A stretch of 64,000 nucleotides of DNA from Sphingobacterium bovisgrunnientis. Its GTDB lineage: Bacteria; Bacteroidota; Bacteroidia; Sphingobacteriales; Sphingobacteriaceae. Below the pieces are notes generated by a model, which saw only the letters and a list, made by a program, of their open reading frames with translations, searched no databases and was not told the DNA's origin. The translations under genes were made by a program, and so were the position numbers. The stretch covers positions 1 to 64,000 of the forward strand of contig NZ_WUQY01000014.1 of NCBI RefSeq assembly GCF_009829085.1. The letters are read 5' to 3'. Each line of letters opens with the position of its first letter. Within the stretch, counting starts at the first letter, position 1. Shown here in pieces: positions 31,901 through 64,000 of the stretch.

Positions 31901-32070
31901 TTATCTGTGATCGTACCAAGACCAGGAGCGTCTAATACATGGACACTTATACCGGGTAATGGATTTTTCTGTGCATCGAGTACAATACCCGTTACTTCAA
32001 CTATTTCCTGCGCTAGCGACAAATTGATGACGCTAAGAAGTAAAATACAGGTTAGTAAGAATTTATTCAT
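28948..32070 (-). CDS. SusC/RagA-family TonB-dependent outer-membrane transporter
   Basis: The 1040-residue receptor has a signal peptide ending near SLAQ, a carboxypeptidase-regulatory-like domain (VTGIVLDAQKNPLPGISVHV), a TonB-box region (EEVVVTGTG), a plug with SVLKDAAVTAIYGSRGANGVILITTK, and a 22-strand-type barrel ending SVTFGININL. It imports oligosaccharides with SusD using TonB energy. The substrate cannot be read from sequence. It is second in the operon after the IPT/NHL lipoprotein gene (60-nt gap). Confidence 0.95.
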   Translation of the reverse strand: MNKFLLTCILLLSVINLSLAQEIVEVTGIVLDAQKNPLPGISVHVLDAPGLGTITDNKGVYKIKAERYKKLVFRSVGFQTQEVVIKEDLTLNITLVEKESSVLEEVVVTGTGNQTKLTLTGAVTTVNVDDLKSNPTSSLSNALAGNVAGVMAMMQSGQPGRNISEFWIRGISTFGGGSSALVLVDNIERNINDINIEDIESFSVLKDAAVTAIYGSRGANGVILITTKRGKEGKININFKNETIYNTRTITPEFEDGFTYANLLNEARITRNFEPVYQPEELEILRLGLDPDLYPNVDWQAKLLNDGAMTHRANLNMSGGGSTARYFVSGSYVDEGGMYKIDESLKKDYNTNANYKRWNYRLNTDMNVTSSTILKVGVAGSLGLRNSPGIGDIDFWGSLFGYSPISMPITYSNGRIPAVGEGNRTNPWVMATQTGYNENWTNNIQINVTAEQNLDFITQGLRGRGIFGYDTHNNNNIRRIKWPEQWRADRARNVNNGEIIYYKVSDPREMTQLGSGYGNRREFLDFMFNYDRGFDGHNIGAVARFTRDALVETVNYESVLENGVVVNRNYSNDIKNGLARKNEALAGRVTYNYRNRYFTDFNFGYTGSENFARGNQYGFFPAVSFAWNISEEKIFKENTEWMNLLKVRFSYGRTGNDQLMNRERFPYLYDIGGAGGYQWADFGSTRSFGGLRYSQVASPYVSWEVSLKQNLGFDINLFNNKFESSIELFDEERTGIYMPRNFLPEIVGLESIPRANVGAVSSKGFEGRFSYKQKIGEVNVTARGNITYSKNKILERDEENNVYPYQNSEGFRVDQAKGLIALGLFKDYDDIRNSPTQTFGAYQPGDIKYKDVNGDGIIDNGDIVAIGATRRPNLIYGLGSSFQWKGIDINMHIQGAGKSTFSTYGKTVYAFSEGEWGQVMKGVMGDNRWISADISGDPSTEDPNASYPRLSFGAFPNNFRESTFWLRNGQYLRLKNIDIGFSLPQSVTNRIKTNNIRLFLAGHNLMTWSNFKLWDPELATPRGEDYPLPKSVTFGININL

Positions 32071-36192: not shown

Positions 36193-39100
36193 CTAAGTTT
36201 GGTTTAAAGGTAGTCGCAAAGTAAAGGTATTAAGATTTTCGTTATCTATAGTATAACTGATGATGCCATTTAGTTTGATGGCGAGCGATTGCGCCAATGA
36301 TAGCCCAAGCCCGCTACCTGGAATGCTCTTGCTGTGTTTCAGTCGGTTAAAAGGTTCAAATATATATTCTCTATCTACTTCCTTGATCAGAATCCCATCA
36401 TTTTTAATAGAAAGTATTAATGCACTATTAACAGAATCTCTTTGTAAATTCACTTTAATTGTTTTGTAAGAATACTTTAATGCGTTGTTCAGTAGGTTGT
36501 TGCATATAATCTCATAGGCTTCGAGATCAATATCACACGTAATATTAGGCTCTATATGACTACTTAATTTCTTATGTTGTGAGTCTAAAGTCACCTTGTA
36601 ATTATCTACAAATTCCTGTGTAGATGCACTGATGTCCTTCAATTCAAAATGAAATTTGAATCCTTTAGTTTCTACTTTTCTGAAATCTAAAAGTTGATTG
36701 CTCAACGAAATAAGACGTTCAGTATTGTTTTGAATATTCTTTAGCAGTTTATCTGTAATTGGGTTTGATGGAATTTTATCAATCAATTTTTCCAAAGGAG
36801 CTTTAATAAGAGTCAATGGGGTACGAATCTCATGAACCACATCTGTATAAAAATCTATTTTAGATTGATAAAGTTCTTGTTCGCGGAGATTTTGTATGGT
36901 CAATAGATGTTCTTTATTCTTTTGTTTTATGCGCTCATTGAAATGATAGGCTATGAACAATATGAGGCAAATAATAATAACGAAATATAAGACAAATGCG
37001 GGGATACTCGCCCATATTGGCGGTAAGATTTTAATTCTTAGTTTGCGTTCACTTGAGAAAGGTATTCCATTTGGATCTTCTGCTTTGACGATGAAATCAT
37101 AATTACCAGGTAAGAGTTTGGTAAAATGTGCGCTCGTGGTGCCATTAGTTGTTACCCAGTCTTTATTAACACCGTCCAATTTATAGCTATATTTAATTGC
37201 ATGTGGGGAATCATATAGTAGCGCTGTGAAGTCCAAAATGAAAGAGGACTCATTGTATTTGAGAATTATTTCATCTGTAAATAAGATGGATTTTTTCAAA
37301 ACGGAATCTGCGTCGTTTTGATTTATTTCTTTATTATTAACAGTTAATCTGGTGATATAAATAGGCGTATTAGAATTGTATTTTATCTGATTTAGCTTTT
37401 CGGGTTCAAATCGAATCATTCCATTGATAGTTCCAAAATAGAACTTTCCTGTTCCATCATCATAGGATGAATTGTAATTGAATTGAATTGATGGTAATCC
37501 AGACTCTATGTTGAATAACCGTGTGTTATTCGTAACTTGATTATATCGAATCAAACCTTTAGAAGTTGTAATCCAAATATTTTTATTCTTATCTTGTAAA
37601 ACAGCAAATACAATCTTACTAGGAAGTTTAATATCAGGATTCTGAAAATCAAATTGAATGTTTTTATTCGGAATAATTTTTCCCAACCCGCCTTCTGTTG
37701 CTATCCATATTTTTCCATTTGAATCTTCAAATATGGAGTTTACTTTGTTATTCGGGAGTGAATTCGGATTATTAGGTTCGTGGGCAAAATGCTTTATAAT
37801 ATTTCTGCGGGGATGATACATGTACAACCCGTTTCTCCAAGTGCCTAACCAGATGTAACCTTTACTATCTTCTAATAGGGTAGTGTAGGACATTTCTGTG
37901 GGGACCTTAGTGATAGGACTGAATGATTTGTTTGTAATATCAAACGTATAATGCCCTCGTGTAGTAGCAATTAAAATTTCACCAGATTTACTTTTTTTGA
38001 TGTCGTATAGAAAGTTGCTTTTTAGCGAGGAAGTTGAATTAGCGTCGTATTCTGTGTGATAGATAACTTTTTTGGATTGGGTATTAAAAATATCCATCCC
38101 ATATACAAAAGCTCCAAGGAGTATATTGTCTTCATACGGAAGAAGTCCGTGGATATTGTTGTCGGAGAGACCTACATTTTCAATATTATAATTTTCGATA
38201 TGACCAGTGACTGGATTTAGTTTACTAAGACCTCCATTCTCGGTTCCTAACCAAATATTTCCGTTCTTATCTTTATTGATACCACGGACGACAGTGCCTA
38301 ATAAATTGCCGCCTTGAGTTTTCGACATAAACTTTTCGATAAGATTATTATTCTTATGATAATAGTTTATCCCCCCAAAATAGGTGCCTAACCAAATCCC
38401 TCCATCTTTATCCTTCAATATATTATAAATAGCATTATCCGAAATTCCCCAAGGATTATTTTCTGCTTTCTTGATATTGATGAACTTCTTGGTTTCTATA
38501 TTGTATATAAATAAACCTGATTCAGTCGCGAACCAATATTCTTGCTCATTCATTTGAAGAATATCCCGTACATACAGATATTGTTTTAGCTGTTTAATGC
38601 CTAATAACCAAGTGACGGTATTATCTTTTGCGACGGAACCAACTCCAGCTTTCGAAGTTCCAAATATTAAATTACCCTTTTCATTTTTAATAATTTTTTG
38701 AATAGCAAACCAATCTTTAGGCCCATGTTTTTGTTCTAAATCGATAAGTATCGTTGAACGGAATTTTTCAACTAGACAGATTTTTCCATTGAATGTGCCA
38801 TAATATAATTTATCCTCCTTCGAACAGAATAATGCGGAGATATTATTTTCATCTACATTTATTTTTGTCGTATTTTTTTTTGAATAATTATAAAAATATA
38901 GACTTTGGTTAGCTATAAACCAGATATTATTTTTTGAATCTTTTTTGATCACGGGTACATCAGCATTGGCAAACTCTTCACTTAAAAGAGCGAATGTTTC
39001 TTGTATTGGATTATATATATAGATTCCCTGATCAGTACCTATCCATATTTTTTTTTCATTATCTTCTATTAGTGATATGATATTATTTGCAACAGTATTG

Positions 39101-39333
39101 AGGACGTGATTTCGAATATCAAAATGTTTGAAATTATTTCCATCAAACCTATCCAATCCATCTTTAGTTCCAAGCCACAAAAACCCAAAACTATCTTGCA
39201 TGCTGCAAATGACAGTATTGTTAGAAAGTCCATCGTTTATTTGATAATGATTAAAATAATAAGGCTGCGCATATTGCTGCGTGGGCAATACGAAAAGTAA
39301 CATAAGGATTAGCCAAGAACTTATTTTATTCAT
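36193..39333 (-). CDS. PUL sensor histidine kinase with periplasmic propellers
   Basis: The 1046-residue protein has a signal peptide and about a dozen two-component-regulator propeller repeats (motifs such as NIWLGTENGGLSKL, KIWIATEGGLGKI) forming a periplasmic glycan sensor. A Y_Y_Y domain follows (YSYKLDGVNKDWV), then one membrane helix (about residues 770-795), HisKA with H834 in VVHEIRTP, and an HATPase domain with NNLLNNALKYS and GSGLGLSLA. In the N-G1 region an Asn stands where Asp is usual (KNDGIL), a variant seen in other kinases. In most PULs this module is fused to the receiver and AraC parts. Here a TAG separates them. Confidence 0.93.
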   Translation of the reverse strand: MNKISSWLILMLLFVLPTQQYAQPYYFNHYQINDGLSNNTVICSMQDSFGFLWLGTKDGLDRFDGNNFKHFDIRNHVLNTVANNIISLIEDNEKKIWIGTDQGIYIYNPIQETFALLSEEFANADVPVIKKDSKNNIWFIANQSLYFYNYSKKNTTKINVDENNISALFCSKEDKLYYGTFNGKICLVEKFRSTILIDLEQKHGPKDWFAIQKIIKNEKGNLIFGTSKAGVGSVAKDNTVTWLLGIKQLKQYLYVRDILQMNEQEYWFATESGLFIYNIETKKFINIKKAENNPWGISDNAIYNILKDKDGGIWLGTYFGGINYYHKNNNLIEKFMSKTQGGNLLGTVVRGINKDKNGNIWLGTENGGLSKLNPVTGHIENYNIENVGLSDNNIHGLLPYEDNILLGAFVYGMDIFNTQSKKVIYHTEYDANSTSSLKSNFLYDIKKSKSGEILIATTRGHYTFDITNKSFSPITKVPTEMSYTTLLEDSKGYIWLGTWRNGLYMYHPRRNIIKHFAHEPNNPNSLPNNKVNSIFEDSNGKIWIATEGGLGKIIPNKNIQFDFQNPDIKLPSKIVFAVLQDKNKNIWITTSKGLIRYNQVTNNTRLFNIESGLPSIQFNYNSSYDDGTGKFYFGTINGMIRFEPEKLNQIKYNSNTPIYITRLTVNNKEINQNDADSVLKKSILFTDEIILKYNESSFILDFTALLYDSPHAIKYSYKLDGVNKDWVTTNGTTSAHFTKLLPGNYDFIVKAEDPNGIPFSSERKLRIKILPPIWASIPAFVLYFVIIICLILFIAYHFNERIKQKNKEHLLTIQNLREQELYQSKIDFYTDVVHEIRTPLTLIKAPLEKLIDKIPSNPITDKLLKNIQNNTERLISLSNQLLDFRKVETKGFKFHFELKDISASTQEFVDNYKVTLDSQHKKLSSHIEPNITCDIDLEAYEIICNNLLNNALKYSYKTIKVNLQRDSVNSALILSIKNDGILIKEVDREYIFEPFNRLKHSKSIPGSGLGLSLAQSLAIKLNGIISYTIDNENLNTFTLRLPLNQT

Positions 39334-51512: not shown

Positions 51513-52853
51513 TTATCTTCCGCTAAGGAAGGTTTTTTCTTGTTTCCAGGTGAATGCTGTAAATATAATAGCCAACACGCATGCCGCTAGAATAAGTTCA
51601 AAAGCGCCGTTCCAACCACCGAAATCAACAACAGCTCCTAGAGCAGCATTTGCTAATAAATCGCCGATAAAATAACCAAATAAACCAGTTAATCCTGCAG
51701 CAGTACCCGCAGCTTTTTTAGGAACTAAATCCAATGCTTGCACTCCGATAAGCATTACTGGTCCATAGATTAAAAATCCAATTGCCCATAATGCAATATT
51801 AACTACCCATTGGCTGTCGCCAGGCGCTAACCAGTACACCAATACGGCGATAAATGTAAAGAACATATAAATGATAGTCACTGGAGCACGACGACCACCA
51901 AACAGTTTGTCACTCATTACTCCACACAAAATCGTACCTGGAATAGCTGCTAATTCATAGAAAGACGCTGACCAAGTCGCCTCAGAAGCTGTAAAATTCT
52001 TCGCTTCTTGTAAAAATGTAGGTGCCCAGTTTACAATACCATTTCGTACCAAATAAACAAAAGCATTAGCGATAGCAATAAACCACAACAATTTATTGTT
52101 GAACACATATTTGAAAAAGATTTCTTTGGCAGTGAATTCTTTCTCTTGACTTGCTTCGTAAGTTTTTGGGTAGTCATTCTTGTATTCTTCGATAGGAGGA
52201 AGACCACAGGATTGCGGTGTATCTCTAACCAATAAGATTGACAGTAAAGCAACAGCAAGAGCTGCAAGACCTGGGAAATATAATCTTGCTTCCCAATCTA
52301 GGAATAATTCGACACCTAAAATAGTCAAGGGGCCAACTAAAAATCCTCCAACATTGTGTGCTAAATTCCAAATTGACATTGTGGTACCTCTTTCTTTTAT
52401 AGAGAACCAATGCACCACTACGCGTCCACATGCTGGCCAGCCCATTCCTTGTACCCATCCATTGATAAAGAGTAAGGCAAACATAATTCCCACAGAAGAT
52501 GTCGCCACAGGAGAGAATCCCATAAAAATCATCGTCAATGAGGATAGGATAAGTCCTGCTGCTAAAAAGTAACGGGCATTAGATCTATCTGAAACATTTC
52601 CCATCAAAAACTTGCTTAGTCCATATGCAATGGAAATAGCAGACATCGCTATACCTAATTCAGCCTTCGAATACCCAAGCACATCTTGTAAATCTTTGAC
52701 CGCGAAGGAGAAGTTCTTACGTACAAAATAATAGGCTGCGTATCCAAAGAATATACCTGTGAAAACTTGAATTCTTAATTTTTTGTATTCAGGATCGATG
52801 CGGCTTTCTGGTAATGGGTTTTTATGGGCAGCGGGTTTGAAAATATTAAACAT
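51513..52853 (-). CDS. glpT: GlpT/UhpT-family organophosphate:phosphate antiporter (probable glycerol-3-phosphate transporter)
   Basis: The 446-residue MFS protein of the OPA family has 12 membrane helices. Family features include YAAYYFVRKNFSFAVKDLQD in helix 1, LSKFLMGNVSDRSNARY, GWVQGMGWPACGRVVVHWF, and the second-half RNGIVNWAPTFLQE. OPA members exchange an organophosphate for inorganic phosphate. Glycerol-3-phosphate is the probable substrate because a GlpQ-like phosphodiesterase gene lies 2 nt upstream on the same strand and GlpF is nearby. Hexose phosphate cannot be excluded from sequence alone. Confidence 0.87.
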   Translation of the reverse strand: MFNIFKPAAHKNPLPESRIDPEYKKLRIQVFTGIFFGYAAYYFVRKNFSFAVKDLQDVLGYSKAELGIAMSAISIAYGLSKFLMGNVSDRSNARYFLAAGLILSSLTMIFMGFSPVATSSVGIMFALLFINGWVQGMGWPACGRVVVHWFSIKERGTTMSIWNLAHNVGGFLVGPLTILGVELFLDWEARLYFPGLAALAVALLSILLVRDTPQSCGLPPIEEYKNDYPKTYEASQEKEFTAKEIFFKYVFNNKLLWFIAIANAFVYLVRNGIVNWAPTFLQEAKNFTASEATWSASFYELAAIPGTILCGVMSDKLFGGRRAPVTIIYMFFTFIAVLVYWLAPGDSQWVVNIALWAIGFLIYGPVMLIGVQALDLVPKKAAGTAAGLTGLFGYFIGDLLANAALGAVVDFGGWNGAFELILAACVLAIIFTAFTWKQEKTFLSGR

Positions 52854-52855
52854 AA

Positions 52856-53761
52856 CTAGAATAAATTAGGATAATCAGAAATAATTCCATCAACTTTCAA
52901 AGCTTTTAGCGCTTCGATCTCTTCTTTTGTATTCACTGTCCAAGGAATAATTTTGATTCCTAACTGGTGTGCCTGAGTCACAAAATCTGTAGTCACAATT
53001 TTATAATTAGGACTGATGATAAAAGGTTTAAAACCCAAATCTTCAACCAATTCTTCTGGCGTTTTGGTATTTTTTGCATCTACCAAATACGACGTACGAA
53101 TAGTTGGGTATTGCTTATTAATATATTGAATCGTACGCTTATCAAAAGATTGGATTACTGTGCGAGGCGCAATTCCTTTGTCTAAAACTATCTTTACCAA
53201 TAAGTCCGAAAATTCTTTTGGCTCTGGGTGAGCTTTATTATCTTTTTTTTCGTTACTCTTCGTTTCGATGTTATAAAACATCTTTCTGCCTTTAGAGTTA
53301 GCATATTTTTCAGACTCATCGATTAAATCTGATAATAAGTCAATTTTTGTTGCTGTTTTTTTCTGTTGTGGGAAATCTACATTACCTTTTAAACCTATGT
53401 CAAATTGTTGTAATTGGTCGTAGGTATAATCGTAAATCAGTCCTTTATTATCTTTTCCAGTCAGCTCTTTACCATCGGCATACGTGACGAATTTTGGATT
53501 TAAGAAATCATCATGATAAACCACAACTTTTTTATCTTTCGTGATATGACAATCCATTTCTAAAGTAGTCACTATTGGCAAATCAATAGCAATTTTCATT
53601 GCTCCTGTAGAGTTTTCAGGATATAATCCGCGTGCACCTCTGTGCCCTTCGTAGGCGAAAGTAGGGAAGGAGGGTTCTATATTTTTGGAAGAATACATTT
53701 GCTTACAAGATAATAGTGTTACACTCGAAATTAGAATGGATAAAATTATATTTTTCTTCAT
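52856..53761 (-). CDS. glpQ: GlpQ-like glycerophosphodiester phosphodiesterase, lipoprotein
   Basis: The 301-residue lipoprotein has a lipobox TLLSC (Cys about residue 19), so it is membrane-anchored outside the cytoplasm. The TIM-barrel GDPD domain has EGHRGARGLYPENST with the first catalytic His, LEMDCHITKDKKVVVYHDD with the metal Glu/Asp and second His, and a C-terminal IIPWTVNTKEEIEAL. It hydrolyses glycerophosphodiesters to glycerol-3-phosphate plus an alcohol. The stop is 2 nt from the GlpT-like ATG, so product release and import are encoded together. The long pre-terminal part FPQQKKTATKIDLLSD resembles periplasmic GlpQ. Confidence 0.92.
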   Translation of the reverse strand: MKKNIILSILISSVTLLSCKQMYSSKNIEPSFPTFAYEGHRGARGLYPENSTGAMKIAIDLPIVTTLEMDCHITKDKKVVVYHDDFLNPKFVTYADGKELTGKDNKGLIYDYTYDQLQQFDIGLKGNVDFPQQKKTATKIDLLSDLIDESEKYANSKGRKMFYNIETKSNEKKDNKAHPEPKEFSDLLVKIVLDKGIAPRTVIQSFDKRTIQYINKQYPTIRTSYLVDAKNTKTPEELVEDLGFKPFIISPNYKIVTTDFVTQAHQLGIKIIPWTVNTKEEIEALKALKVDGIISDYPNLF

Positions 53762-53839
53762 ACAGGTAGTTATAGAAATTAGAATGGCGTAAAAATAATT
53801 AATAAACTTAGCGTCGAAAATCTATTTCTCTTTAAAAAT

Positions 53840-53888
53840 GTAACATCAGTAAGACATATTGTTTCTACATATTTCTTACTGATGTTAC
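53840..53888 (-). terminator. terminator after the BACON/LTD lipoprotein gene
   Basis: A 15-bp perfect stem (GTAACATCAGTAAGA at 53840-53854 with TCTTACTGATGTTAC at 53874-53888) has a 19-nt loop and a T-rich minus-strand tail. It separates the susCD-type operon from glpQ-glpT. Confidence 0.8.
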
Positions 53889-53909
53889 TTTATAGTTTAC
53901 TATAGATAG

Positions 53910-55454
53910 CTACGGAGCAGGAATCATTTTCGTTGAATTTGCTGTTTCAATTTGATTCAATGTCGAGTTGTCTGTTAACGTAATCAAATTGTGTGAGCGT
54001 GGCGTAGTCCATGTTGCCGAAGTAACATTATAAGCACCACGCAATTCATAGAATTGATTTTGAGCTGCATAAGCTACTGACCATGTGTTTGTTCCTTGGC
54101 GATAGAAGCGTGTATTAGTTCCAGCCACCGTATAATGATCTGTAGTGGTAACACGATAACCTCTTTCTTGGCCAGTAAATGGTGCATAGCTTCTAAGTCC
54201 GTATAATGCTCCAGTGCCTGGACCGATGAAAATGACATCCATTGGCTCGGTTTCATGGTCTATAGTTGTTCCTTTGAAAACTGCAAGCCCAGAAGTAACA
54301 CCTGAGTTAGCGAATAAGCCAGTACTGATAGCACCCACACCATCATCGCCTGGATTATTAACATAATCATGTTGTTTTACCCAGTTTGCTTCAGGAATGC
54401 TTGTAGAATTTGGACCATTGATTCTACCACCTGTTCCACCGACATAAAAGTATTGTCCTTTCTGTACAGTTCCCGATGTAATGTTTATTTTATATGTACG
54501 ATTAACCGCCGCATTATTAATAGTATAAGTTCCCGACACCCATCCATTTGGAGGAAAGTCTTGTCTGCGGTCTAATTGACCTGCGCCAGGTGCACCCGTT
54601 GTACCCGCATTATTACATATAATTAAACTGTAAGCATTGTCACCATTATCAAAAGTGATATCGCGTAATGCTAAGAATTGAACATATTCTTGATTTCCAT
54701 CAGCACCATTAGGGTCAGCCATAAATCCAGAAATCACAAATGGTAAAGCGTCTGGATGTGGTTTATTAGGATCGAATACTTCTTTCGTAATAGGTGCAGG
54801 CATTTCAAGTCCACGACTAACATCTGACGTACTTACCGTAAAAGTAACATTACCTGTTACCGTAGGTTTTCCACTTAGAGGAATAAGTATTTCTCCAGAA
54901 GTGGAGGTCAATACGATTGGATGATCGGTAATAGGATTAAATCCAGGAGCACCGTCTCCTGTCATAGTAACAGTAAAGAGAATTTGATCATCTACAATTC
55001 CTTTTTGATATGGAATAGAAATGTATACATCTTTAATGTCTTCACCGATGTTAAATAATTCTGCATTGATCGTAGCCTCACCTAAATTCAATCTACCGTC
55101 CTCTTGTTGAACAAGGATTTCTGTAACTTCTTGTCCAACTTTTAATTGAATTTTTCCTTCTCTTTGTTCACCTTTATTTGGAGCTACCGTTACTAAGACT
55201 GGCTGTCTTTTACCGGTACCAGTACCAGAATTCAGGTCAAAAGATATCCATTCGTCATCTGGCGCATCTAAAGTCCACGATTCGCCATTCGTCGTAAATG
55301 CAAATCCTTTTTCTCCGCCTTCCCAAGGGAAAGCTAGTTGATCAGTTGTTTTGTCTAAAAAGAAACCCATAACTTCTTCTTTATCACATGAAGTGAAAAA
55401 TCCGATGAATATAGTTAATAGCAAAACGTAACTTTTAAATCCTTCTTTTTTCAT
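53910..55454 (-). CDS. BACON plus lamin-tail-like surface lipoprotein
   Basis: The 514-residue lipoprotein has a lipobox FFTSC near residue 23. A BACON-like domain follows (about 35-120; LAFPWEGGEKGFAFTTNGESW, then GKIQLKVGQEVTEILVQQ), then another beta-sandwich (about 120-230). A region beginning FVISGFMADPNGADGNQEY (about 240-360) resembles lamin-tail domains, and the C-terminal part is beta-rich. BACON domains bind glycans or mucin-like ligands. Lamin-tail domains often accompany secreted nucleases and phosphoesterases. It is the last gene of the second susCD-type operon. I see no catalytic site, so a binding role is likely. Confidence 0.72.
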   Translation of the reverse strand: MKKEGFKSYVLLLTIFIGFFTSCDKEEVMGFFLDKTTDQLAFPWEGGEKGFAFTTNGESWTLDAPDDEWISFDLNSGTGTGKRQPVLVTVAPNKGEQREGKIQLKVGQEVTEILVQQEDGRLNLGEATINAELFNIGEDIKDVYISIPYQKGIVDDQILFTVTMTGDGAPGFNPITDHPIVLTSTSGEILIPLSGKPTVTGNVTFTVSTSDVSRGLEMPAPITKEVFDPNKPHPDALPFVISGFMADPNGADGNQEYVQFLALRDITFDNGDNAYSLIICNNAGTTGAPGAGQLDRRQDFPPNGWVSGTYTINNAAVNRTYKINITSGTVQKGQYFYVGGTGGRINGPNSTSIPEANWVKQHDYVNNPGDDGVGAISTGLFANSGVTSGLAVFKGTTIDHETEPMDVIFIGPGTGALYGLRSYAPFTGQERGYRVTTTDHYTVAGTNTRFYRQGTNTWSVAYAAQNQFYELRGAYNVTSATWTTPRSHNLITLTDNSTLNQIETANSTKMIPAP

Positions 55455-55513
55455 CCTTTTATATTTTAATAATCAAGGTTTGATATAATTCAGTTGACAA
55501 TTACACTTTCTGC

Positions 55514-57475
55514 TTAACGCATTGCGTAATTGAAAGCTTTAGGTCTTACCATTGTTTCTGTATATTTCGTTCCAAACTCATCTTCCACTGTAACTTCTAG
55601 TGTTGAAGTAGGACTACTTGCTTCAACTAAGAATAGGTGAGCTGTATTACTTGCACCAAAAGTTGGATCAGCATTAGCATTTATGCGTTGCATGTCGTAC
55701 GAAATAAGGTGTAATGGATCTTTTTTACGAACTCTATTTACAGCTAGATTATTGCCGTTTTCTTTAACGGTAACTTTCCAATTATTTTGGTATCCCCATA
55801 CATTAATCAGCACTTGATTTTTTTTATTGGCAGTACCGTATTCCCCAACAATCCCAGGTACTTTAGCTTTAAACTCATCATTTGCGTTTGGAGTATAATT
55901 TGCAGCTGTAATATGAACATTGTTTAGATCATACGTTCTGAATTGATAATCTTTGTCATATCCAATACTTTTGTAGTACCACTTTTGGTTTCTTCCATTC
56001 ATTTCCCAAATAGAATAACCACCCGGACTTCCGTCTTTAGAGATATGATTATTAGCACTAGTAGCTCCGGTCCACCACCAAGTTGCACTAACAGCCGCAA
56101 TTGTATGTTCTGAAATGTTCGAACCCGCAGGCGAATTCCTGTAATTTACGTGAGTATGACCCGATAGAACCTTTACATTAGTAAATTCAGAAACAGCTGC
56201 TAATAGTTGTGGCGTGTTTTCCATGGCATTATTAAAATTGCCGTTCTGGTCTGGATTAGTAAACAGAGGCACGTGAGTTGCAATTACAATTGGCGTGTTT
56301 TTATCTGTAACATAAGATAAATCTTTCATTAACCAGTTCAATTGTTCTTGATCTAGAATATCTTTATAGTTTCTTTCACCAATAATTCCTAGGCTACCAC
56401 CGTCATTCAGCCATTCCATATTATCCAATATCACGTAGTGAACATTTCCAATATTCATTGAATAATAAGTTGGGCCCAATGTTCTTTTGTATGGCAATGC
56501 ACCAAGCCAATCATTTGAACTTACATAAGGGTCATAATCATGATTTCCTATTACATTGAAGATTGGAAATTCCAGACTTTTGACTTGTTCAATGTATTGT
56601 TCTAACTTGAAATTGTTTGAATACCAATACAATTCCCAAGTAAGGTCTCCTAATGTGATTCCGTAGAAACGCTTGTTTTGACTTTTGTATTGTGCATACA
56701 CCGCTTTGATATCTTCCATGAAACCATCTTGAAACTGCACAAGATCGTTGTTTCTATTTGCAAGATGTAAATCCGCCATAAATGCAACTACATGGTTTTC
56801 ATTATTTACAGGAGTCAATTCGAAATCTTTGATTTCTGTTGAAGAAGTTACACCAGCTAAACGTTTGAATAACTGAGGAACAGTATTAATAGATGCTACT
56901 TCGTAATTCGAAGGAATAGAAATAAAAACGTAACCGTGTTTTTTTGCAGATGGCAGGTAATATATACCGTTTTGATCCGTTACTGCAAACTCAATACCAT
57001 CAGATACCACAACATTGGCTACACCTTGACCATTTGCATGTACAGTACCTTTTACTGTCATTCCTTCGCGGTCAGGAATATTATCATTAATGATATGATT
57101 AATGAAGGTTCTGCCAAGTAATTGATCTAAATTTCCTCTTTGAATTCTGATTTCATATTCACCATCCAATAGACTTTCGGAGTTTGCTAATACTATTTGA
57201 GCCTCTTCTAAGTTTTTAGTCACCATCTCAAGAGATCCACCACCTTGGCCTCCACGAGGAATGAATGTGATAATATCGCCTTCTTGAAATCCTATTCCGG
57301 AGATGATAATATCCGATTCCTTCGTCACATTATAAACATATGGAATGTCGATGTGCGTTACTTTTATAGAGGTTTGAATCTTTTCCTCTGTCAATTCTGT
57401 TATTTTATCTGAGCAACTCGAAAATATAGTTGCGCAGATAAAAATTAGCATTAAAAATATATTTAGTTTTTTCAT
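55514..57475 (-). CDS. calcineurin-like metallophosphoesterase lipoprotein
   Basis: The 653-residue lipoprotein has a lipobox IFSSC near residue 20. An IPT-like domain (about 35-130) and a carboxypeptidase-regulatory/calcineurin-N-type domain (MTVKGTVHANGQGVANVVVS) precede the phosphoesterase core. Metal ligands are D235/H237 in MADLHLA, Asp in TLGDLTW, N311/H312 in VIGNHDYD, His in VIATHVPLF, and H440/H442 in LSGHTHVNY. A C-terminal calcineurin-C-like beta domain ends it. It should hydrolyse phosphomono- or diesters at the cell surface or in the periplasm. Its operon mates (SusC/SusD, DUF5689) and the nearby glpQ-glpT point to organophosphate scavenging. Confidence 0.9.
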   Translation of the reverse strand: MKKLNIFLMLIFICATIFSSCSDKITELTEEKIQTSIKVTHIDIPYVYNVTKESDIIISGIGFQEGDIITFIPRGGQGGGSLEMVTKNLEEAQIVLANSESLLDGEYEIRIQRGNLDQLLGRTFINHIINDNIPDREGMTVKGTVHANGQGVANVVVSDGIEFAVTDQNGIYYLPSAKKHGYVFISIPSNYEVASINTVPQLFKRLAGVTSSTEIKDFELTPVNNENHVVAFMADLHLANRNNDLVQFQDGFMEDIKAVYAQYKSQNKRFYGITLGDLTWELYWYSNNFKLEQYIEQVKSLEFPIFNVIGNHDYDPYVSSNDWLGALPYKRTLGPTYYSMNIGNVHYVILDNMEWLNDGGSLGIIGERNYKDILDQEQLNWLMKDLSYVTDKNTPIVIATHVPLFTNPDQNGNFNNAMENTPQLLAAVSEFTNVKVLSGHTHVNYRNSPAGSNISEHTIAAVSATWWWTGATSANNHISKDGSPGGYSIWEMNGRNQKWYYKSIGYDKDYQFRTYDLNNVHITAANYTPNANDEFKAKVPGIVGEYGTANKKNQVLINVWGYQNNWKVTVKENGNNLAVNRVRKKDPLHLISYDMQRINANADPTFGASNTAHLFLVEASSPTSTLEVTVEDEFGTKYTETMVRPKAFNYAMR

Positions 57476-57493
57476 GATAGTCGTTTAAATACC

Positions 57494-58735
57494 TTAGTAA
57501 CTTCTGAAAATAGCAAAATCGTCTACACCTAATCTACCTCCAACATTATTTGCTTGAGGACGGTTGAGTCTAAAACGTACAGGTCCAGGAATATTCATTA
57601 AGAATATCGCTTGCTTGCTGTCCATACTTACCGTTGTTGTATGTGCATCTGTGATGTTTCCATTGACTTGATGCCATGTGGTACCTTTATCAGTAGAGTA
57701 CTCCAATTTAAACCAGCTAGTAGGATCATTCCAATATGAACCATAGAAAAAAGTAACTTTGGAAGCTCCATCAGGTACATCGAAATCCATTTGCAATAGG
57801 GCATCGGAAGTTGCATGATTTTGTTGGAAACGAACAGCGTTCACACCAGAAACAATACGATCTCTACCTGGGGTAATACCTAATAATGTTTGTTGAAACC
57901 ACCAAGGTCCTGTCGATAAAACCACCGTTCTATTCGCATAACCATCTTTAGGTGCATCTGGATTTTCGAAAGTCTCAGGCCATCCCGCATAGATTTTACC
58001 ACTTGGATAAGCCATATCTGCATAGGTAAGTAATCTTAAAGCGATATTTTCATTTTGCTTGGTAACAATTCCTCTAAATGTTGCACTTGGCGCTACAGGT
58101 TCATTCGCAAAAGTAGCTTCGTTACCTACTGTTACGAATACTTTCTTTCCATCAGCGTCAGCCAATGGACGTGAACCACTAATCTTGTCACGAGGATTGG
58201 GTTCAACTTCAAGATCTGATGTAATTTCAACGTACGTAGACTCGTAGTTATCAAATTGATTATTCAGTGTACCAATAGAAACAGCTTTAGCTGTCACTGT
58301 ATTATTACGGTTTATAATGTAGGTATTGTTGTGATTTGCCCCCAGTAAAGCCAACATACCTTCTCTGCGACCTAAGGTCAATTCATCTACCCAAATATCT
58401 ACGGAGTCCCCAAGTCTATAACGTTGTGGATCATCAATTTCAACTAAAATACCGCGCAACTGACCTCTCCACTCATTTTGAACAGCAATATAGTTTTTAG
58501 GAAAGTTGTTTCCTTCATGGCTAGATACCACCAAAGCTTTAATATGATTTGCTTTGGTAAGTTCATTCTCTCCGAGTTTCACATCTTCTTGCTTGTGTAT
58601 GTTTCGCAATGCATAAATAGAAATCTCCGGATTATTAGTGCCTAGAGCTTCATTTACATCTTCTTTGAAACAGCTGGAAAGTAATACAGATGTAATACCA
58701 GCATATATAAATGTTTTTATTCCTCTCATTTTCAT
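57494..58735 (-). CDS. DUF5689 lipoprotein
   Basis: The 413-residue lipoprotein has a lipobox VLLSSC near residue 22. The N-terminal ~200 residues match DUF5689 (PEISIYALRN, KALVVSSHEGNNFPKNYIAVQ, RGILVEIDD, YRLGDSVDIWV), an OB-like domain also seen next to secreted nucleases and phosphatases. The C-terminal ~170 residues form a jelly-roll (VTFFYGSYWNDPTSWFKLEYS, GRLGVDDFAIF). No catalytic residues are evident. It lies 11 nt after susD and 18 nt before the phosphoesterase gene, so it is part of the same operon and probably helps capture the substrate. Confidence 0.83.
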   Translation of the reverse strand: MKMRGIKTFIYAGITSVLLSSCFKEDVNEALGTNNPEISIYALRNIHKQEDVKLGENELTKANHIKALVVSSHEGNNFPKNYIAVQNEWRGQLRGILVEIDDPQRYRLGDSVDIWVDELTLGRREGMLALLGANHNNTYIINRNNTVTAKAVSIGTLNNQFDNYESTYVEITSDLEVEPNPRDKISGSRPLADADGKKVFVTVGNEATFANEPVAPSATFRGIVTKQNENIALRLLTYADMAYPSGKIYAGWPETFENPDAPKDGYANRTVVLSTGPWWFQQTLLGITPGRDRIVSGVNAVRFQQNHATSDALLQMDFDVPDGASKVTFFYGSYWNDPTSWFKLEYSTDKGTTWHQVNGNITDAHTTTVSMDSKQAIFLMNIPGPVRFRLNRPQANNVGGRLGVDDFAIFRSY

Positions 58736-58746
58736 AGTATCAATTA

Positions 58747-60210
58747 TTAGTTAGCAGGCTGCCACCACATTAAAGAATTAGGCGTATTTCCTCCCATACG
58801 AGCGGAAGCCTCATCGTAATTATCTTTATTCAATGCCTGCGTGATTAATGGATAAGTCATTCTTACTGGCATTTTTCTTCCTTCAAGGCCAGGACCTTGG
58901 ATTAGATCCAAAGCTCTTGTTCTACGGTATTCATACCACTGTTGGAAGTCCGTGAAAAATAAAGAATAGTACTTTTGCAAATGAATTTTCTTCAATTTGC
59001 TCTCATTTGTATCTGTTGGGAAAAAGCCAACTCGTTCATTGCTTAGATAAGTTGCTGGAAGTTCTACACCCCATATTTGCATTGCTGAGTTTACACCATT
59101 TTGATAGTGTTGCCATGCATCGCCGCTGTATGTTATTCCTTTAAGCGCACATTCTGCTAGAATAAATTGCAATTCAGCATAATTTAAGATGTTTCCTAAT
59201 CGAGAGCTCGTCATCAATGAAGGATGAAAAGTAGACAGACGCTCAGGTACTTGTCCGCGAGGATAACCTGATTGCATACCCAAATAAGATCCCAATGTAG
59301 GTTGCGTAGCCCACAAACTAAGACGTGGATCTGCCATCGCAATTAGATTCTCGATAAAGAAGTGCGAATATCCTTTATTTCCATTAAAATCGATTTCGCG
59401 AGAATTCATATATGGATTTATATAAGGCTCTTGCGTGGTGAAATATAGAATAGCTGAATCATCATGGCTGCTCATAATTGGATATTGAGAAGATTTAGTT
59501 TCTACAATTTCTCTAATTTTAAGCACAGCATTCAATTCAGGTTTGTGTGATACGCGAAGTAACAATCGCAAGTATAATGAGTTGCCGAATTTGCGCCATT
59601 TCGCTGTATTACCAGCAAATAGGGGATCCATATTTTGATGAGATTCTGGTAATTCATCTTCACTCAACAATTGGTTCGCTTGCTCTAATTTCAAAAATAG
59701 ATCACGATAAATATCGATTTGTTTGTCGTAGACAGGTGTTCTATTTAGTTCTTTGTATCCAAGATTACTTTCGAAGTAAGGAACATCACCGTACATATCT
59801 GTAAGCATTGAACTAACCCATACATCTAATATTCTGGATACACCTTGATATGCTTTGTAACCCGACTGTTGTCCAACGCCAGCGCTAGTATATATATCAC
59901 GTATGTTTGTCAATTCCACATACCAGTTTCTCCACATATGCTCGGTCTCTGTAGCACGAACCTCATAGCGGTGAAACTCTAAGTTGTTATTTGTTGTGAC
60001 CGTCACTTGCATAAGCTCATTATTGATGCGCATATTACGATCAAGATTCGCAGCTAAAGTCTTGTAAAGTGTAGGGCCTATTAATGCTTGCGGAGAAACT
60101 TTAGCACTTTCGTTAGGATTGGTATTTATATCCACAAAATCTCCAGTACAACTCCATGTGGTTACACATAAAGTTGCTAATGCTATAATTAAGTTAAATT
60201 TAAATTTCAT
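58747..60210 (-). CDS. SusD/RagB-family nutrient-binding lipoprotein (second pair)
   Basis: The 487-residue lipoprotein begins MKFKFNLIIALATL and has a lipobox TTWSC. It is of the shorter SusD-like type: DFVDINTNPNESAKV, WVSSMLTDMYGDVPYFES, LNYAELQFILAECALKG, and a final YEYRRTRALD. I chose the ATG at 60210; the frame is open back to 60285, but that part overlaps the end of susC. It is the outer-membrane lid of the adjacent SusC-like channel. The ligand is unknown. From operon context an organophosphate or phospho-glycan is suspected. Confidence 0.92.
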   Translation of the reverse strand: MKFKFNLIIALATLCVTTWSCTGDFVDINTNPNESAKVSPQALIGPTLYKTLAANLDRNMRINNELMQVTVTTNNNLEFHRYEVRATETEHMWRNWYVELTNIRDIYTSAGVGQQSGYKAYQGVSRILDVWVSSMLTDMYGDVPYFESNLGYKELNRTPVYDKQIDIYRDLFLKLEQANQLLSEDELPESHQNMDPLFAGNTAKWRKFGNSLYLRLLLRVSHKPELNAVLKIREIVETKSSQYPIMSSHDDSAILYFTTQEPYINPYMNSREIDFNGNKGYSHFFIENLIAMADPRLSLWATQPTLGSYLGMQSGYPRGQVPERLSTFHPSLMTSSRLGNILNYAELQFILAECALKGITYSGDAWQHYQNGVNSAMQIWGVELPATYLSNERVGFFPTDTNESKLKKIHLQKYYSLFFTDFQQWYEYRRTRALDLIQGPGLEGRKMPVRMTYPLITQALNKDNYDEASARMGGNTPNSLMWWQPAN

Positions 60211-60220
60211 AACAGTACTA

Positions 60221-63200
60221 TTAGAAAGAAAGTGATAAGTTAAGACCAAAATTACGTGTTGATGGGAATTGGGCGATCTCTCCACCTTTTTCCACTCCGC
60301 TCGAATTTAGAGAGCCAAATTCTGGATCAAATGCTGGCCAATTACTAAATACTAAAAGATCTCTTCCGTAAATACCAACTGTTACTTTGTTGGCTTTTAA
60401 TTTACTTAGCATATCTTTTGGTAATGTATAATCCAAGCGTGCTTCCCTTAACTTTACAAAATCCGTAGAAAATGTGTTTGATTCGATATTATCTCTGTTA
60501 AAATGTCTGCGGTAATAATCTCCAGCTGCCACTACAGTCGTGTTTGGAGTATACACACCATTTCCATTATCTACCACACCATTACCGATAATTCCATTGT
60601 ATCTGCCGGGGATACTTTTCTTCAATTTACCTTCTTCCATTAATACAGCGTGTGTAAGAGAGTAGCCTACACCACCAAATTGACCATCAAATAGGATATT
60701 GAATCGTAAATTTTTGTAACCTAAACTTGTTCCTATACCGAACTTTTGACGAGGATTTGGATTACCAATAAATATGACATCATCTGTGTAATCTGGAAGT
60801 CCAGAACTATAGATAATTTGTCCAGCTTCATTGCGTTTGTATCCTAGTCCATACATATCACCAAATCGACCGCCAAGTCTAGCTTCTACTGTTCCTCTAC
60901 TGCCATAAATTGTAGACAATACCAAAGGTTTTTCTTCATCCATCACAGGAAGCTCTTCAATCTTAGTGTCGAAAGCAGTATAGTTACCAAACATTGACCA
61001 ACTGAAGCCATCAGGTTTCTTAATAATATCACCGTTCAATTCAATCTCAATACCTTGATTGCTCACTTTACCACCGTTGATGATTTGGTTTCTATAACCT
61101 GATGAAGGATCAATAGGTGTTTCTATGATTTGATTGATGTTAAAGCCTTTATATACCGTTACATCTATTTTTGCTCGGTTTCTAAACATTCTGAATTCTG
61201 ACCCCAATTCATAAGAGATTTTATTTTCAAAAGTCAAATTCTCATCAGGAATGGATGTAGGATTGAATGCACCGCCAGGGAAGTTTGTTGCACGAGGGTA
61301 TGTGTAGCTGTTCAAATAAGGACGCTTACCGCCACCACCTACACCTGCAGCACTTGCTCTAAATTTCCAGAAGCTGATTTCTTCAGGCAATTCGAAGATA
61401 TCGGATAACACCAAACTGGCATTGACAGAAGGGTAGAAGAAAGGCTTTACATTTCCTTTTTTAGGAGAAGCCAACGTACTTGCCCAGTCTACACGTAATG
61501 TAGCGTCCAAAAATAAGACATCTTTATAACTACCATTCGCCATACCATACAAACTGTTCACAGCATATTTTGATAAGTATGGATCATAAGTGACAAGTGT
61601 TGCTGAGTTCGAAAAGTTATACTCATTGGGTACACTTAACAATCTCGTCCAACCATCTTCTCGATCGTACACATTCACCAACATCGCTCCACCCAAATTA
61701 CCACCAAATTTGAAATCATCGTGACGCTGATTATTATAGGTCAAAAGGAAATCTGTGTTTACCTCTTGGTTGTACACTCCTTGTTCACGATAATAGCCAA
61801 AAGCGTATTTGTAAGTGTCGAATGGTCTTGATTGGGTACGTTGATCATAAGAAAAATCAAGTCCTCCACGCAACATGATACTTAGTTCAGGTGTAAATTT
61901 GTAATCTGCTTGAAGATTACCTATCACTTGATGTTTATTTTGTGAGTTTATCATGTCGTACGACATGGTTCTCGGGTTATCCAATAGATTGGAGAAGGGC
62001 GTTGTTTGTGTGATACCGTATTCATTAGGTCTCCAGTTATCCTCAAACCACCTAGAGTCCCAGTTCGGGACTACTCCACGGATAAAGTACATGTAACTTT
62101 GGTTATTATAACCAGAATTTGGTAAGTTATCTGAACCACGATGATTGTAATTAATCTTCGTCGAGAAAGATAATTTTTCCGTTAATTGATTTGTCAAATT
62201 ACCCGCGATAGAATTTCTATTGTATCCCATATTAGGAATAATCCACGAGTTGTAAACGTTTGTATAAGCAAATCTCGCTGAAGTTTTATCTGTGGAACCA
62301 GAAATACTTACACTGTTTGTTGCCGTTAAATCTGTAGTGAAGAAATCCTTTCTGTTGTTAGGGTATGCTTTCCATAAGGTACGGTTTGGAGCTACTTCCC
62401 TGTAATACGCGGGGTCGTATTGATAGAACATTTGTCCATCAAATTTTGGTCCCCACGCAGATGATGTACTCAAGGTTGACGATCCATCTTCAGATTGGCC
62501 ATAGGAGTAATACAAATCTTGACCGATGTCTCCTTGACCATACTCATATTGATAGTCAGGCCATTTATTTATTGTACCAAATGTAGTGTTTGAATTCACT
62601 GAAACACCAAAGCCACCACCTTTTTTTCCTTGTTTGGTAGTAATGATAAGTGCACCATTCGCACCGCGGTAACCATATAACGCTGATGCTGCTGGACCTT
62701 TTAGGACAGTGATCGACTCAATATCATCAGGATTAATATCCGACAAGGAAGAACCAAAATCTACAGGAGAATCATCCGATAAATAATTAGACTGGCCTGT
62801 TGTGGTCATTCTTTTGCCGGCTTCCATCACAACACCATCTATTACGATTAATGCACTATTGTCACCCGAAAATGATGTTTCACCTCTTAAAACAATTTCA
62901 TTTGAACCAAGCGGACCTCCGTTTGATTTGGTCACATTTAAACCTGCAACTTTACCTACAAGTGCATCCGACCAATTGTTTGAAATTGCATCTGTAAGTT
63001 GTTCACCTGAAACGGTACTTACGGCGTAGCCTAAGGCTTTTTGCTCACGTTTAATCCCCAATGCAGTTACTACGACTTCATCAATATCTTGAGAAGATTC
63101 GTTTAATCTTATCGTAACAGTGCTGCTGGCTTGTGTATACTTTTGTACAAACGGTTCATATCCAATTAAATGGAATCGTACTTCCGCACCTGCTGGAATA

Positions 63201-63463
63201 TCCAATGCAAACGAACCGTCCACTTTTGTAGATGTTGCTGCCTTGCCATTCACTTGGATTGATACATTGGATAAAGGTTGATTGTCATTTGCATCTATTA
63301 CCTTTCCTGTCACTTTAATGGTTTGTTGTACCATAAAGGCATTTTCTGCATTGAATGCTGAAGCATGAATGGTTCCAACAAATGGACTAGAAAGAAGTGC
63401 AAGCCAAATAAGTTTGGTCTGAAATGGTTTGTCCCCATTTCTCCATTTAATTTTATTTAACAT
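60221..63463 (-). CDS. SusC/RagA-family TonB-dependent transporter (second pair)
   Basis: The 1080-residue outer-membrane receptor has a long signal region (~45 residues), a carboxypeptidase-regulatory-like domain (IKVTGKVIDANDNQPLSNVS), a TonB box (DEVVVTALG), a plug with VLKGPAASALYGYRGANGALI, and a C-terminal barrel (NFGLNLSLSF). It is the first gene of an operon with SusD, DUF5689, phosphoesterase and BACON/LTD genes. Three in-phase TTAAYA boxes lie 37-65 nt upstream of its ATG, so phosphate-dependent control is plausible. No anti-sigma-interaction (STN) domain is visible, so it is not a FecR-type system. Confidence 0.95.
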   Translation of the reverse strand: MLNKIKWRNGDKPFQTKLIWLALLSSPFVGTIHASAFNAENAFMVQQTIKVTGKVIDANDNQPLSNVSIQVNGKAATSTKVDGSFALDIPAGAEVRFHLIGYEPFVQKYTQASSTVTIRLNESSQDIDEVVVTALGIKREQKALGYAVSTVSGEQLTDAISNNWSDALVGKVAGLNVTKSNGGPLGSNEIVLRGETSFSGDNSALIVIDGVVMEAGKRMTTTGQSNYLSDDSPVDFGSSLSDINPDDIESITVLKGPAASALYGYRGANGALIITTKQGKKGGGFGVSVNSNTTFGTINKWPDYQYEYGQGDIGQDLYYSYGQSEDGSSTLSTSSAWGPKFDGQMFYQYDPAYYREVAPNRTLWKAYPNNRKDFFTTDLTATNSVSISGSTDKTSARFAYTNVYNSWIIPNMGYNRNSIAGNLTNQLTEKLSFSTKINYNHRGSDNLPNSGYNNQSYMYFIRGVVPNWDSRWFEDNWRPNEYGITQTTPFSNLLDNPRTMSYDMINSQNKHQVIGNLQADYKFTPELSIMLRGGLDFSYDQRTQSRPFDTYKYAFGYYREQGVYNQEVNTDFLLTYNNQRHDDFKFGGNLGGAMLVNVYDREDGWTRLLSVPNEYNFSNSATLVTYDPYLSKYAVNSLYGMANGSYKDVLFLDATLRVDWASTLASPKKGNVKPFFYPSVNASLVLSDIFELPEEISFWKFRASAAGVGGGGKRPYLNSYTYPRATNFPGGAFNPTSIPDENLTFENKISYELGSEFRMFRNRAKIDVTVYKGFNINQIIETPIDPSSGYRNQIINGGKVSNQGIEIELNGDIIKKPDGFSWSMFGNYTAFDTKIEELPVMDEEKPLVLSTIYGSRGTVEARLGGRFGDMYGLGYKRNEAGQIIYSSGLPDYTDDVIFIGNPNPRQKFGIGTSLGYKNLRFNILFDGQFGGVGYSLTHAVLMEEGKLKKSIPGRYNGIIGNGVVDNGNGVYTPNTTVVAAGDYYRRHFNRDNIESNTFSTDFVKLREARLDYTLPKDMLSKLKANKVTVGIYGRDLLVFSNWPAFDPEFGSLNSSGVEKGGEIAQFPSTRNFGLNLSLSF

Positions 63464-63500
63464 AGGTGTGTGATTTTTCGTTGCTAAATTGCAGAGCTAA

Positions 63501-63539
63501 TATTAAGTCAATGTTAACTCAATATTAAACTCATAATAA
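63501..63539 (-). promoter_or_regulatory. Pho-box-like tandem TTAAYA repeats upstream of second susC
   Basis: On the minus strand TTAATA, TTAACA and TTAATA occur at 63523-63528, 63512-63517 and 63501-63506, at an exact 11-bp period. A degenerate fourth (TTATTA) lies in phase at 63534-63539. Each of the three fits the TT(A/C/T)A(C/T)A element bound by B. subtilis PhoP, and 11-bp spacing is the rule for PhoB/PhoP sites. A weak -7 box, TAGCTCTG (63492-63499), follows. Confidence 0.5.
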
Positions 63540-63586
63540 TCATATGTTTTTAGTAGGTTTTTGTGGTTTTATTTCACTTTTTATTT

Positions 63587-64000
63587 TTAATAAATTAAAA
63601 TATACAATACTGACGCTATAGCAGATCCGATGAATGGACCTAGAACTGGAACCCAAGCATATTCTAAATTAAAAGTTGCTTTATTCTTAATAGGTAGAAG
63701 AGCATGAATAATACGGGGACCTAGATCTCTTGCAGGATTGATCGCATAGCCAGTAGTTCCGCCTAACGAAAGTCCAATTGCCCATACTAAAAATGCAACA
63801 GGAAGTGCCCCAATTGATCCTAAACCAATAGGAGTAGTGGTATCTAGTGTAGCATCCTGAAAATGTAGAATGGTAAAAATAAGTACAAAAGAACCTACGA
63901 TTTCACTCAATAAATTTCTCGGAAGATTTTTGATCGCAGGTGCTGTGCAGAAAACAGCTTGTTTTGCGCCGGCATCTTCAGTGACATCAAAATGATCTTT
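63587..64000 (-). CDS. glpF: aquaglyceroporin GlpF, C-terminal part (cut by window edge)
   Basis: The frame is open to the end of the window, giving the last 137 residues; the N-terminal half lies beyond 64000. The second NPA signature is GYAINPARDLGPR. The Asp after NPAR is the mark of glycerol-conducting rather than water-only channels. Upstream, VTEDAGAKQAVFCTAPA and FLVWAIGLSLGG are also GlpF-like. It carries glycerol across the inner membrane. Its position beside the phosphodiester locus suggests that glycerol or glycerol-3-phosphate is the shared product. glpK and glpD may lie beyond the edge. Confidence 0.93.
   Translation of the reverse strand, partial: KDHFDVTEDAGAKQAVFCTAPAIKNLPRNLLSEIVGSFVLIFTILHFQDATLDTTTPIGLGSIGALPVAFLVWAIGLSLGGTTGYAINPARDLGPRIIHALLPIKNKATFNLEYAWVPVLGPFIGSAIASVLYILIY

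Follow-up and report, generated by a model that had tools for sequence, protein, structure and literature searches.

A glycerol-3-phosphate gene cluster with a built-in SusCD pair in Sphingobacterium, predicted to serve glycerophosphodiester uptake

SusCD pairs, of which Bacteroidota genomes carry dozens, are usually taken to be glycan importers. The glp regulon of Proteobacteria comprises glpD, glpK, glpF, glpQ, glpT and glpR, with a DeoR-family regulator; to our knowledge it includes no SusCD pair, DUF5689 protein or MetallophosN/C phosphoesterase. The closest described systems are the phosphate utilisation systems (PUS, with PusCD pairs) of Flavobacterium (PMC8115612). A glycerophosphodiester phosphodiesterase of Bacteroides thetaiotaomicron, BT4727, lies near the SusCD pair BT4724-25 (PMC10434189), and secretion of Sphingobacterium glycerophosphodiester phosphodiesterases has been reported on wheat straw (PMC4666044). 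Here we analysed a window of 64,000 nucleotides (nt) of Sphingobacterium bovisgrunnientis (contig NZ_WUQY01000014.1, positions 1 to 64,000), in which a SusCD pair lies within a glp cluster. We consider it fairly probable that this cluster captures and imports glycerophosphodiesters (deacylated phospholipid headgroups) as a phosphorus and carbon source; the phosphoesterase and GlpQ would cut them to glycerol-3-phosphate for uptake by GlpT.

Past the window edge the contig continues with the rest of glpF (GlpF is 241 aa in full), followed by glpK and glpD; a DeoR-family regulator gene comes next, in divergent orientation. The complete cluster is glpR <-> glpD-glpK-glpF-susC-susD-DUF5689-phosphoesterase-BACON-glpQ-glpT (Table 1), with the regulon set glpD, glpK, glpF, glpT and glpQ and a DeoR-family regulator all together at one locus. 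In NCBIfam profile searches GlpK scored above its cut-off. The other two fell short: glpD reached 298 of the 360 bits required by its best equivalog, and the regulator 247 of the 260 bits required for AgaR. A preliminary description of this DNA had placed GlpF, SusC/SusD, DUF5689, phosphoesterase, BACON, GlpQ and GlpT here, and each was found in place with a profile match, as was the 2-nt gap between the GlpQ-like gene and glpT (52856 and 52853). Its "BACON/lamin-tail" lipoprotein matched BACON (PF13004), and no lamin-tail domain was listed for it at an E-value of 0.01. It had also noted the lack of a glycoside hydrolase; we found none in the eight cluster proteins scanned, so the pairing of SusCD with glycoside hydrolases or lyases that marks a polysaccharide utilisation locus is not seen here.

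In the proposed pathway, the SusD, DUF5689 and BACON lipoproteins would bind the substrate at the cell surface, the phosphoesterase would trim it there or in the periplasm, and SusC would import it using TonB energy. Periplasmic GlpQ would then free glycerol-3-phosphate and the alcohol; GlpT would take up the glycerol-3-phosphate and GlpF any glycerol, and GlpK and GlpD would channel the products into central metabolism. Phosphate starvation would turn on the SusCD block through a PHO box, and a DeoR-type, GlpR-like regulator would govern glpD; phosphorus and carbon control would thus meet in one locus. The preliminary description had read the locus as one for organophosphate or glycerophosphodiester acquisition. 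Our analysis supports that reading, with the substrate, the import step and both regulatory responses as predictions. It adds three pointers: the glpR-glpD-glpK genes, a predicted PHO box before susC, and a phosphoesterase model whose best match is a glycerophosphodiesterase.

That match was to GpdQ, the top structural match of the predicted phosphoesterase model, at 16-19% identity in structural alignments. The catalytic residues D235, H237, D277, N311, H312, H401, H440 and H442 were invariant across 44 aligned sequences. The dinuclear metallophosphoesterase fold and intact metal ligands of a GpdQ-type class III phosphodiesterase are both seen in the protein, which would cut glycerophosphodiesters. 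GlpQ, whose closest solved relative is 3ch0, has H40, R41, E68, D70 and H83 kept in at least 97% of 42 sequences; we take these to be the motif HR-(x)n-ExD-(x)n-H of the glycerophosphodiester phosphodiesterase (GDPD) family. No acidic export signal followed the GlpQ lipobox in the relatives scored, and acidic residues followed the lipobox in the DUF5689 lipoproteins of relatives; these signal counts are based on loci selected by hand and on a simple pattern by which some signals are missed or wrongly anchored. The DUF5689 model (mean predicted local distance difference test score, pLDDT, 78) had no clear structural match. Over 54-70% of its length, the BACON protein is 34-42% identical to DUF5689-type proteins found in relatives. 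The closest solved SusC by sequence was BT_2264 (352 bits).

To place the locus among its relatives, we searched 93 Sphingobacterium genomes (clade SusC threshold, E ≤ 1e-200). Clade SusC was present in 85 genomes, GlpD in 92 and GlpT in 34. In 23 genomes a clade susC and glpD were no more than about 12 kb apart, a count made by eye from gene positions and checked twice. Such linkage occurred in 22 of the 34 genomes that encode GlpT and in 1 of the 59 that do not (Fisher P = 9e-12, uncorrected for relatedness). Chance would give about 0.6 such neighbours, on the basis of 113 clade SusC matches, a 12-kb flank on each side of glpD and a genome size assumed to be 4.8 Mb. All 23 linked loci (22 relatives and the window) were inspected. 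susC immediately follows glpF in the window and in 20 of the 22 relatives; three genes lie between them in G085, and susCD is placed after glpT in G089. A MetallophosN/C phosphoesterase lies beside SusCD in 16 of the 23, and in G073 the linked SusCD has no phosphoesterase, glpQ or glpT beside it. In two Sphingobacterium genomes the SusCD partner is a phosphocholine-specific phospholipase C (L038, TIGR03396, 770 bits; L196 by BLAST). A second conserved genomic site carries the SusCD clade without glp genes (L040-L043, L048-L050, L053, L056); there, two divergent SusCD types (about 62-64% and 45-48% identical to the window) alternate between similar flanking genes.

Beyond the genus, we examined 80 named loci, 78 with a usable SusC, six of these from Sphingobacterium; we left L102 (cut) and L107 (broken frames, itself glp-linked) out of the counts. 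At least two of glpD, glpK, glpF, glpT and glpQ lay within 10 kb in 11 of 49 loci with a SusC at least 36% identical, compared with 1 of 29 below that (P = 0.026), and any phosphodiesterase lay nearby in 37 of 49 compared with 3 of 29. Leaving out Sphingobacterium gave 8 of 44 against 1 of 28 for glp genes and 34 of 44 against 3 of 28 for phosphodiesterases. The 36% cut was chosen post hoc and part of the BLAST query set was drawn from the upper group, which by itself creates part of the contrast. The glp-linked loci belong to Pseudoflavitalea, other Chitinophagaceae, Daejeonella, Flavisolibacter, Segetibacter, Flagellimonas and a Proteiniphilum metagenome-assembled genome; in three (L061, L062, L071) susCD directly follows glpD. 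Culturable relatives that carry the entire cluster include Sphingobacterium tabacisoli h337 (L060) and Daejeonella oryzae DSM 19973 (L064). A GDSL hydrolase is additionally present in several loci. In Dyadobacter and Zobellia, among others, SusCD is accompanied by a type I phosphodiesterase (by Pfam for L080, by BLAST for the rest). We also built a FastTree phylogeny from 121 SusC proteins, a set in which linked loci are over-represented and some genomes appear twice; on it, glp linkage needed 13 changes against a mean of 30.5 over 200 label shufflings, and phosphodiesterase linkage 13 against 39.5. Conservation of SusCD beside phosphoesterases or glpQ/glpT, on which the preliminary description had staked its reading, is thus seen both within Sphingobacterium (23 of 93 genomes) and in several further families.

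The gap between glpF and susC contains TTAATATTGAGTTAACATTGACTTAATATT. A looser form of this repeat, chosen after some gaps had been seen, occurred in 17 of 18 measurable glpF-susC gaps of linked relatives (G019 lacked it; four gaps were unmeasurable). A strict pattern, TTAAYATT-N3-TTAAYATT, derived from susC promoters only, gave 36 matches in 10 linked genomes, compared with 1 in the reversed control. Ten of these were at susC, spread over 8 genomes (G002 and G040 had none there), 21 at phosphate genes and the remaining 5 elsewhere or unseen. The phosphate genes were DUF47-Pit (10), an adjoining histidine kinase (5), PstS-like (3), another Pit (2) and polyphosphate kinase (1); 17 matches were read in loci and 4 inferred from identical sequence or synteny, and Pfam confirmed one representative per kind, the others being judged by eye. 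Across the 93 genomes we counted 214 strict matches in 87 genomes against 16 in the reversed control (summed by eye); examples before phosphate genes are L252, L227, L228 and L239. Because most other copies examined precede phosphate genes, we predict that the 11-nt repeat is a PHO box; on this view it is susC, and not glpD, that would respond to phosphate. The candidate -7 element just downstream follows what we take to be the -7 consensus. At unlinked loci the looser form gave one weak match, at a Dyadobacter susC (L079), and two at a Sphingobacterium susC (L201).

A different signal is found in the glpR-glpD gap, the 10-nt direct repeat TTTCGWTTNNTTWCGWTTT. An operator pattern that we derived visually from eight sites, six at glpD and two at susC, occurred 60 times in 54 of the 93 genomes, compared with 14 for the backward pattern (summed by eye). 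The adjoining gene was glpD at 33 sites, clade susC at 20, phospholipase C at 2, a 214-aa gene at 4 and another at 1; both phospholipase C sites were independent of pattern building. From this conservation, glpD would be under DeoR-type (GlpR-like) control through the predicted operator. We also considered the TTAAYA repeat as part of a DeoR operator and rejected it: it has no core in common with TTTCGWTTNNTTWCGWTTT, and most of its other copies examined are at phosphate genes. In four loci (L140, L148, L171, L183) operator matches lie 459-470 nt before the 214-aa gene.

All 20 susC operator sites were in genomes where SusCD is away from glpD. When one mismatch was allowed, glpD also had an operator in 7 of 7 such genomes searched, and three of the five sites in G014 (at most one mismatch) were at glpD, susC and phospholipase C, the susC site being a pattern source. 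For loci in the unlinked layout, the operator at susC only suggests and does not prove control by GlpR, given a second DeoR gene 7-9 kb away in many of them. The glpD site of the unlinked genomes has one mismatch and overlaps the start codon, which further weakens the case for GlpR control of susC.

The SusCD block is exchanged independently of the glp genes around it. Compared with the sister genome G046 (locus L205), GlpR, GlpD, GlpK, GlpF and GlpT are 97.5-99.8% identical and GlpQ 94%, while SusC is only 55% and SusD 46% identical. Over 253 pairs of 23 genomes, identity correlated at 0.94 between GlpK and GlpD and at 0.24 between GlpK and SusC. Among nine pairs with GlpK at least 93% identical, SusC was 52-56% identical in six and 83-95% in three. 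The SusCD-lipoprotein-phosphoesterase block has been replaced as a unit and behaves as an exchangeable cassette. Such exchange may tune headgroup specificity or evade phages. A broader idea, which we put forward tentatively and think will probably not hold in full, is a dedicated Bacteroidota SusCD headgroup pathway from the surface to glycolysis: a swappable PHO-box cassette in a GlpR-repressed glp cluster would serve both phosphorus and carbon, with its specificity changed by exchange.

The genes are tightly spaced: the gaps are 10 nt for susC-susD (with the susD start at ATG 60210, preferable to the listed GTG, which overlaps susC), 11 nt for susD-DUF5689, 18 nt for DUF5689-phosphoesterase, 59 nt for phosphoesterase-BACON and 148 nt for BACON-glpQ. 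Between the BACON gene and glpQ stands a strong hairpin with a T-run, so in this S. bovisgrunnientis strain glpQ and glpT probably form a separate transcription unit. A simple promoter scan was not used, as its promoter-like sites were at chance level (43 against 46.6); nor was a simple terminator scan, which gave 9 sites against 7.3 by chance and missed the hairpin before glpQ. Elsewhere in the window, two more minus-strand open reading frames are of SusC-like size (28948-32070, 1040 aa; 36193-39333, 1046 aa).

Table 1. Features of the glp-SusCD cluster in the window
Feature	Positions	Strand	Basis or remark
glpT, glycerol-3-phosphate transporter	51513-52853	minus	TIGR00712 equivalog, 667 bits against cut-off 633
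glpQ, GDPD-family phosphodiesterase lipoprotein, predicted periplasmic	52856-53761	minus	PF03009
Intrinsic-terminator-like hairpin with T-run between BACON gene and glpQ	53835-53888	minus	z -5.95 against shuffles
BACON lipoprotein, predicted surface-exposed binding protein	53910-55454	minus	PF13004; CDKEE at lipobox
Calcineurin-like phosphoesterase lipoprotein, GpdQ-like catalytic domain	55514-57475	minus	PF16371 (MetallophosN), PF00149, PF16370 (MetallophosC)
DUF5689 lipoprotein, predicted surface-exposed binding protein	57494-58735	minus	PF18942; CFKED at lipobox
susD, SusD-like_2 lipoprotein lid	58747-60210	minus	PF12771, 317 bits
susC, TonB-dependent outer-membrane channel	60221-63463	minus	TIGR04056, TIGR04057
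Candidate -7 element of susC promoter, CAATTTAG	63484-63491	minus	by eye, just downstream of predicted PHO box
Predicted PHO box in susC promoter, three TTAAYATT repeats, 11-nt period	63499-63528	minus	
glpF, aquaglyceroporin, 3' part	63587-64000	minus	PF00230; gene runs past window edge
Block exchanged relative to sister genome G046	53683-63200	.	breakpoints near glpQ codon 26, susC codons 75-95

Several observations weigh against a glycerophosphodiester function. GpdQ was tied within 1 with Lmo2642 in VIA-align, and only 1.0 above Rv0805. The MetallophosN/C phosphoesterase was not found by BLAST in 7 of the 23 linked loci, and the unlinked loci L040-L043, L048, L050 and L056 show DUF5689 and no phosphodiesterase nearby. 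The product of phospholipase C is phosphocholine, not a glycerophosphodiester. The strict box was at susC in 9 of 18 linked genomes among the matches listed, and the looser box was not found at the ten glp-linked loci examined outside Sphingobacterium. The BT_2264 structure contains a peptide ligand (PMC7782687). Because L046, with 49% SusC identity, sits with BNR-repeat (sialidase-like) genes and two DUF5689-type proteins, the SusCD clade is not purely phosphodiester-linked. Finally, SusCD is an accessory module of the glp cluster: in 12 of the 34 genomes with glpT no SusC was seen next to glpD (the contigs being broken in some of them), and two glpT genomes (L223, L224) have a glp cluster without it. 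At L222 (G105:C146) the glp cluster keeps DUF5689, phosphoesterase, glpQ and glpT and has no SusCD, by deletion or an assembly fault.

The alternative that survives best is that the substrate is poly-glycerophosphate teichoic acid of Gram-positive neighbours, with SusCD importing oligomers and GlpQ trimming their ends. This substrate would be handled by the same enzymes, SusCD pairs have large cavities (that of Bt1762-63 is given as about 10,000 cubic Angstrom; PMC7782687), and the up to two surface-type lipoproteins besides SusD suggest a ligand bigger than a headgroup. We nevertheless find it unlikely: the eight cluster proteins scanned include no peptidoglycan hydrolase, and the phospholipase C and GDSL hydrolases of relatives point to lipids. 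Somewhat less probable again is that SusCD imports an unrelated ligand (a sugar phosphate, peptide or glycan) and merely shares a convenient place with the glp genes. The independent exchange of the SusCD block, the sialidase-like neighbours of L046 and the peptide in the nearest solved SusC all fit such a ligand; the phosphoesterase found with SusCD in most linked loci, the clustering of glp linkage on the SusC tree, and the operator kind that unlinked susC genes share with glpD argue against it. Nucleic-acid scavenging, the alternative named in the preliminary description, would make the phosphoesterase a surface nuclease or nucleotidase and SusCD an importer of oligonucleotides or nucleotides, and we judge it very improbable: the DUF5689 model has a weak match to DNA-binding HIN-200 domains (E about 1e-4, template-modelling score to target 0.35-0.46) and Mre11 and 5'-nucleotidase folds are among the lower-ranked phosphoesterase matches, but GpdQ ranks above nucleases, the eight scanned proteins have no nuclease domain, and the downstream pathway is that of glycerol-3-phosphate.

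If the cluster does handle glycerophosphodiesters, a SusCD clade tied to their breakdown through gene order, common operators and a predicted PHO box would give a testable non-glycan substrate class and a means of spotting such loci, and it would offer a possible route for membrane lipid recycling by Bacteroidota. With the predicted PHO box TTAAYATT-N3-TTAAYATT, the Sphingobacterium phosphate regulon becomes searchable, and cassette exchange shows that evolution of the outer-membrane front end can be uncoupled from that of the pathway it feeds. A search of the open-access literature, at the level of titles, abstract openings and selected passages, showed no description of a SusCD-glp fusion, dual control or cassette exchange.

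The phosphoesterase has its catalytic-domain fold in common with GpdQ of Enterobacter aerogenes (PDB 2zo9, 2dxl, 3d03), as well as what we take to be the DxH, GD, GNH, H and GHxH motifs; unlike GpdQ, it has an extra N-terminal region with MetallophosN, a C-terminal MetallophosC and a lipoprotein signal. The closest solved SusC belongs to the BT2263-2264 SusCD of B. thetaiotaomicron (PDB 5fq6-8), where the ligand is a peptide (PMC7782687). Like the locus, PUS place a SusCD-like pair beside phosphodiesterases rather than carbohydrate-active enzymes (CAZymes), have been proposed for lipid headgroups and nucleic acids, and have predicted phosphate control (PMC8115612). Induction on phosphate depletion has been measured for PUS and is only predicted for the locus. 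"GlpT" and "DUF5689" are absent from the main text of that paper, and its available parts mention inner-membrane organophosphate transporters and contain no glp cluster or DeoR-type control that we found. PusD1 and PusD2 are PF07980/PF14322 proteins, while the locus SusD is SusD-like_2 (PF12771): its only domains are PF12771 and PF12741, and the PF07980/PF14322 of the PUSI and PUSII PusD were not seen. We do not treat the PusD domain family as defining because PusD is reported to be polyphyletic (PMC8115612). With its SusC/SusD-like pair and its MetallophosN/C and GDPD phosphodiesterases without CAZymes, the locus is a variant of PUS and not a member. Unlike the proteobacterial glp regulon, it has an outer-membrane import front end between glpF and glpQ.

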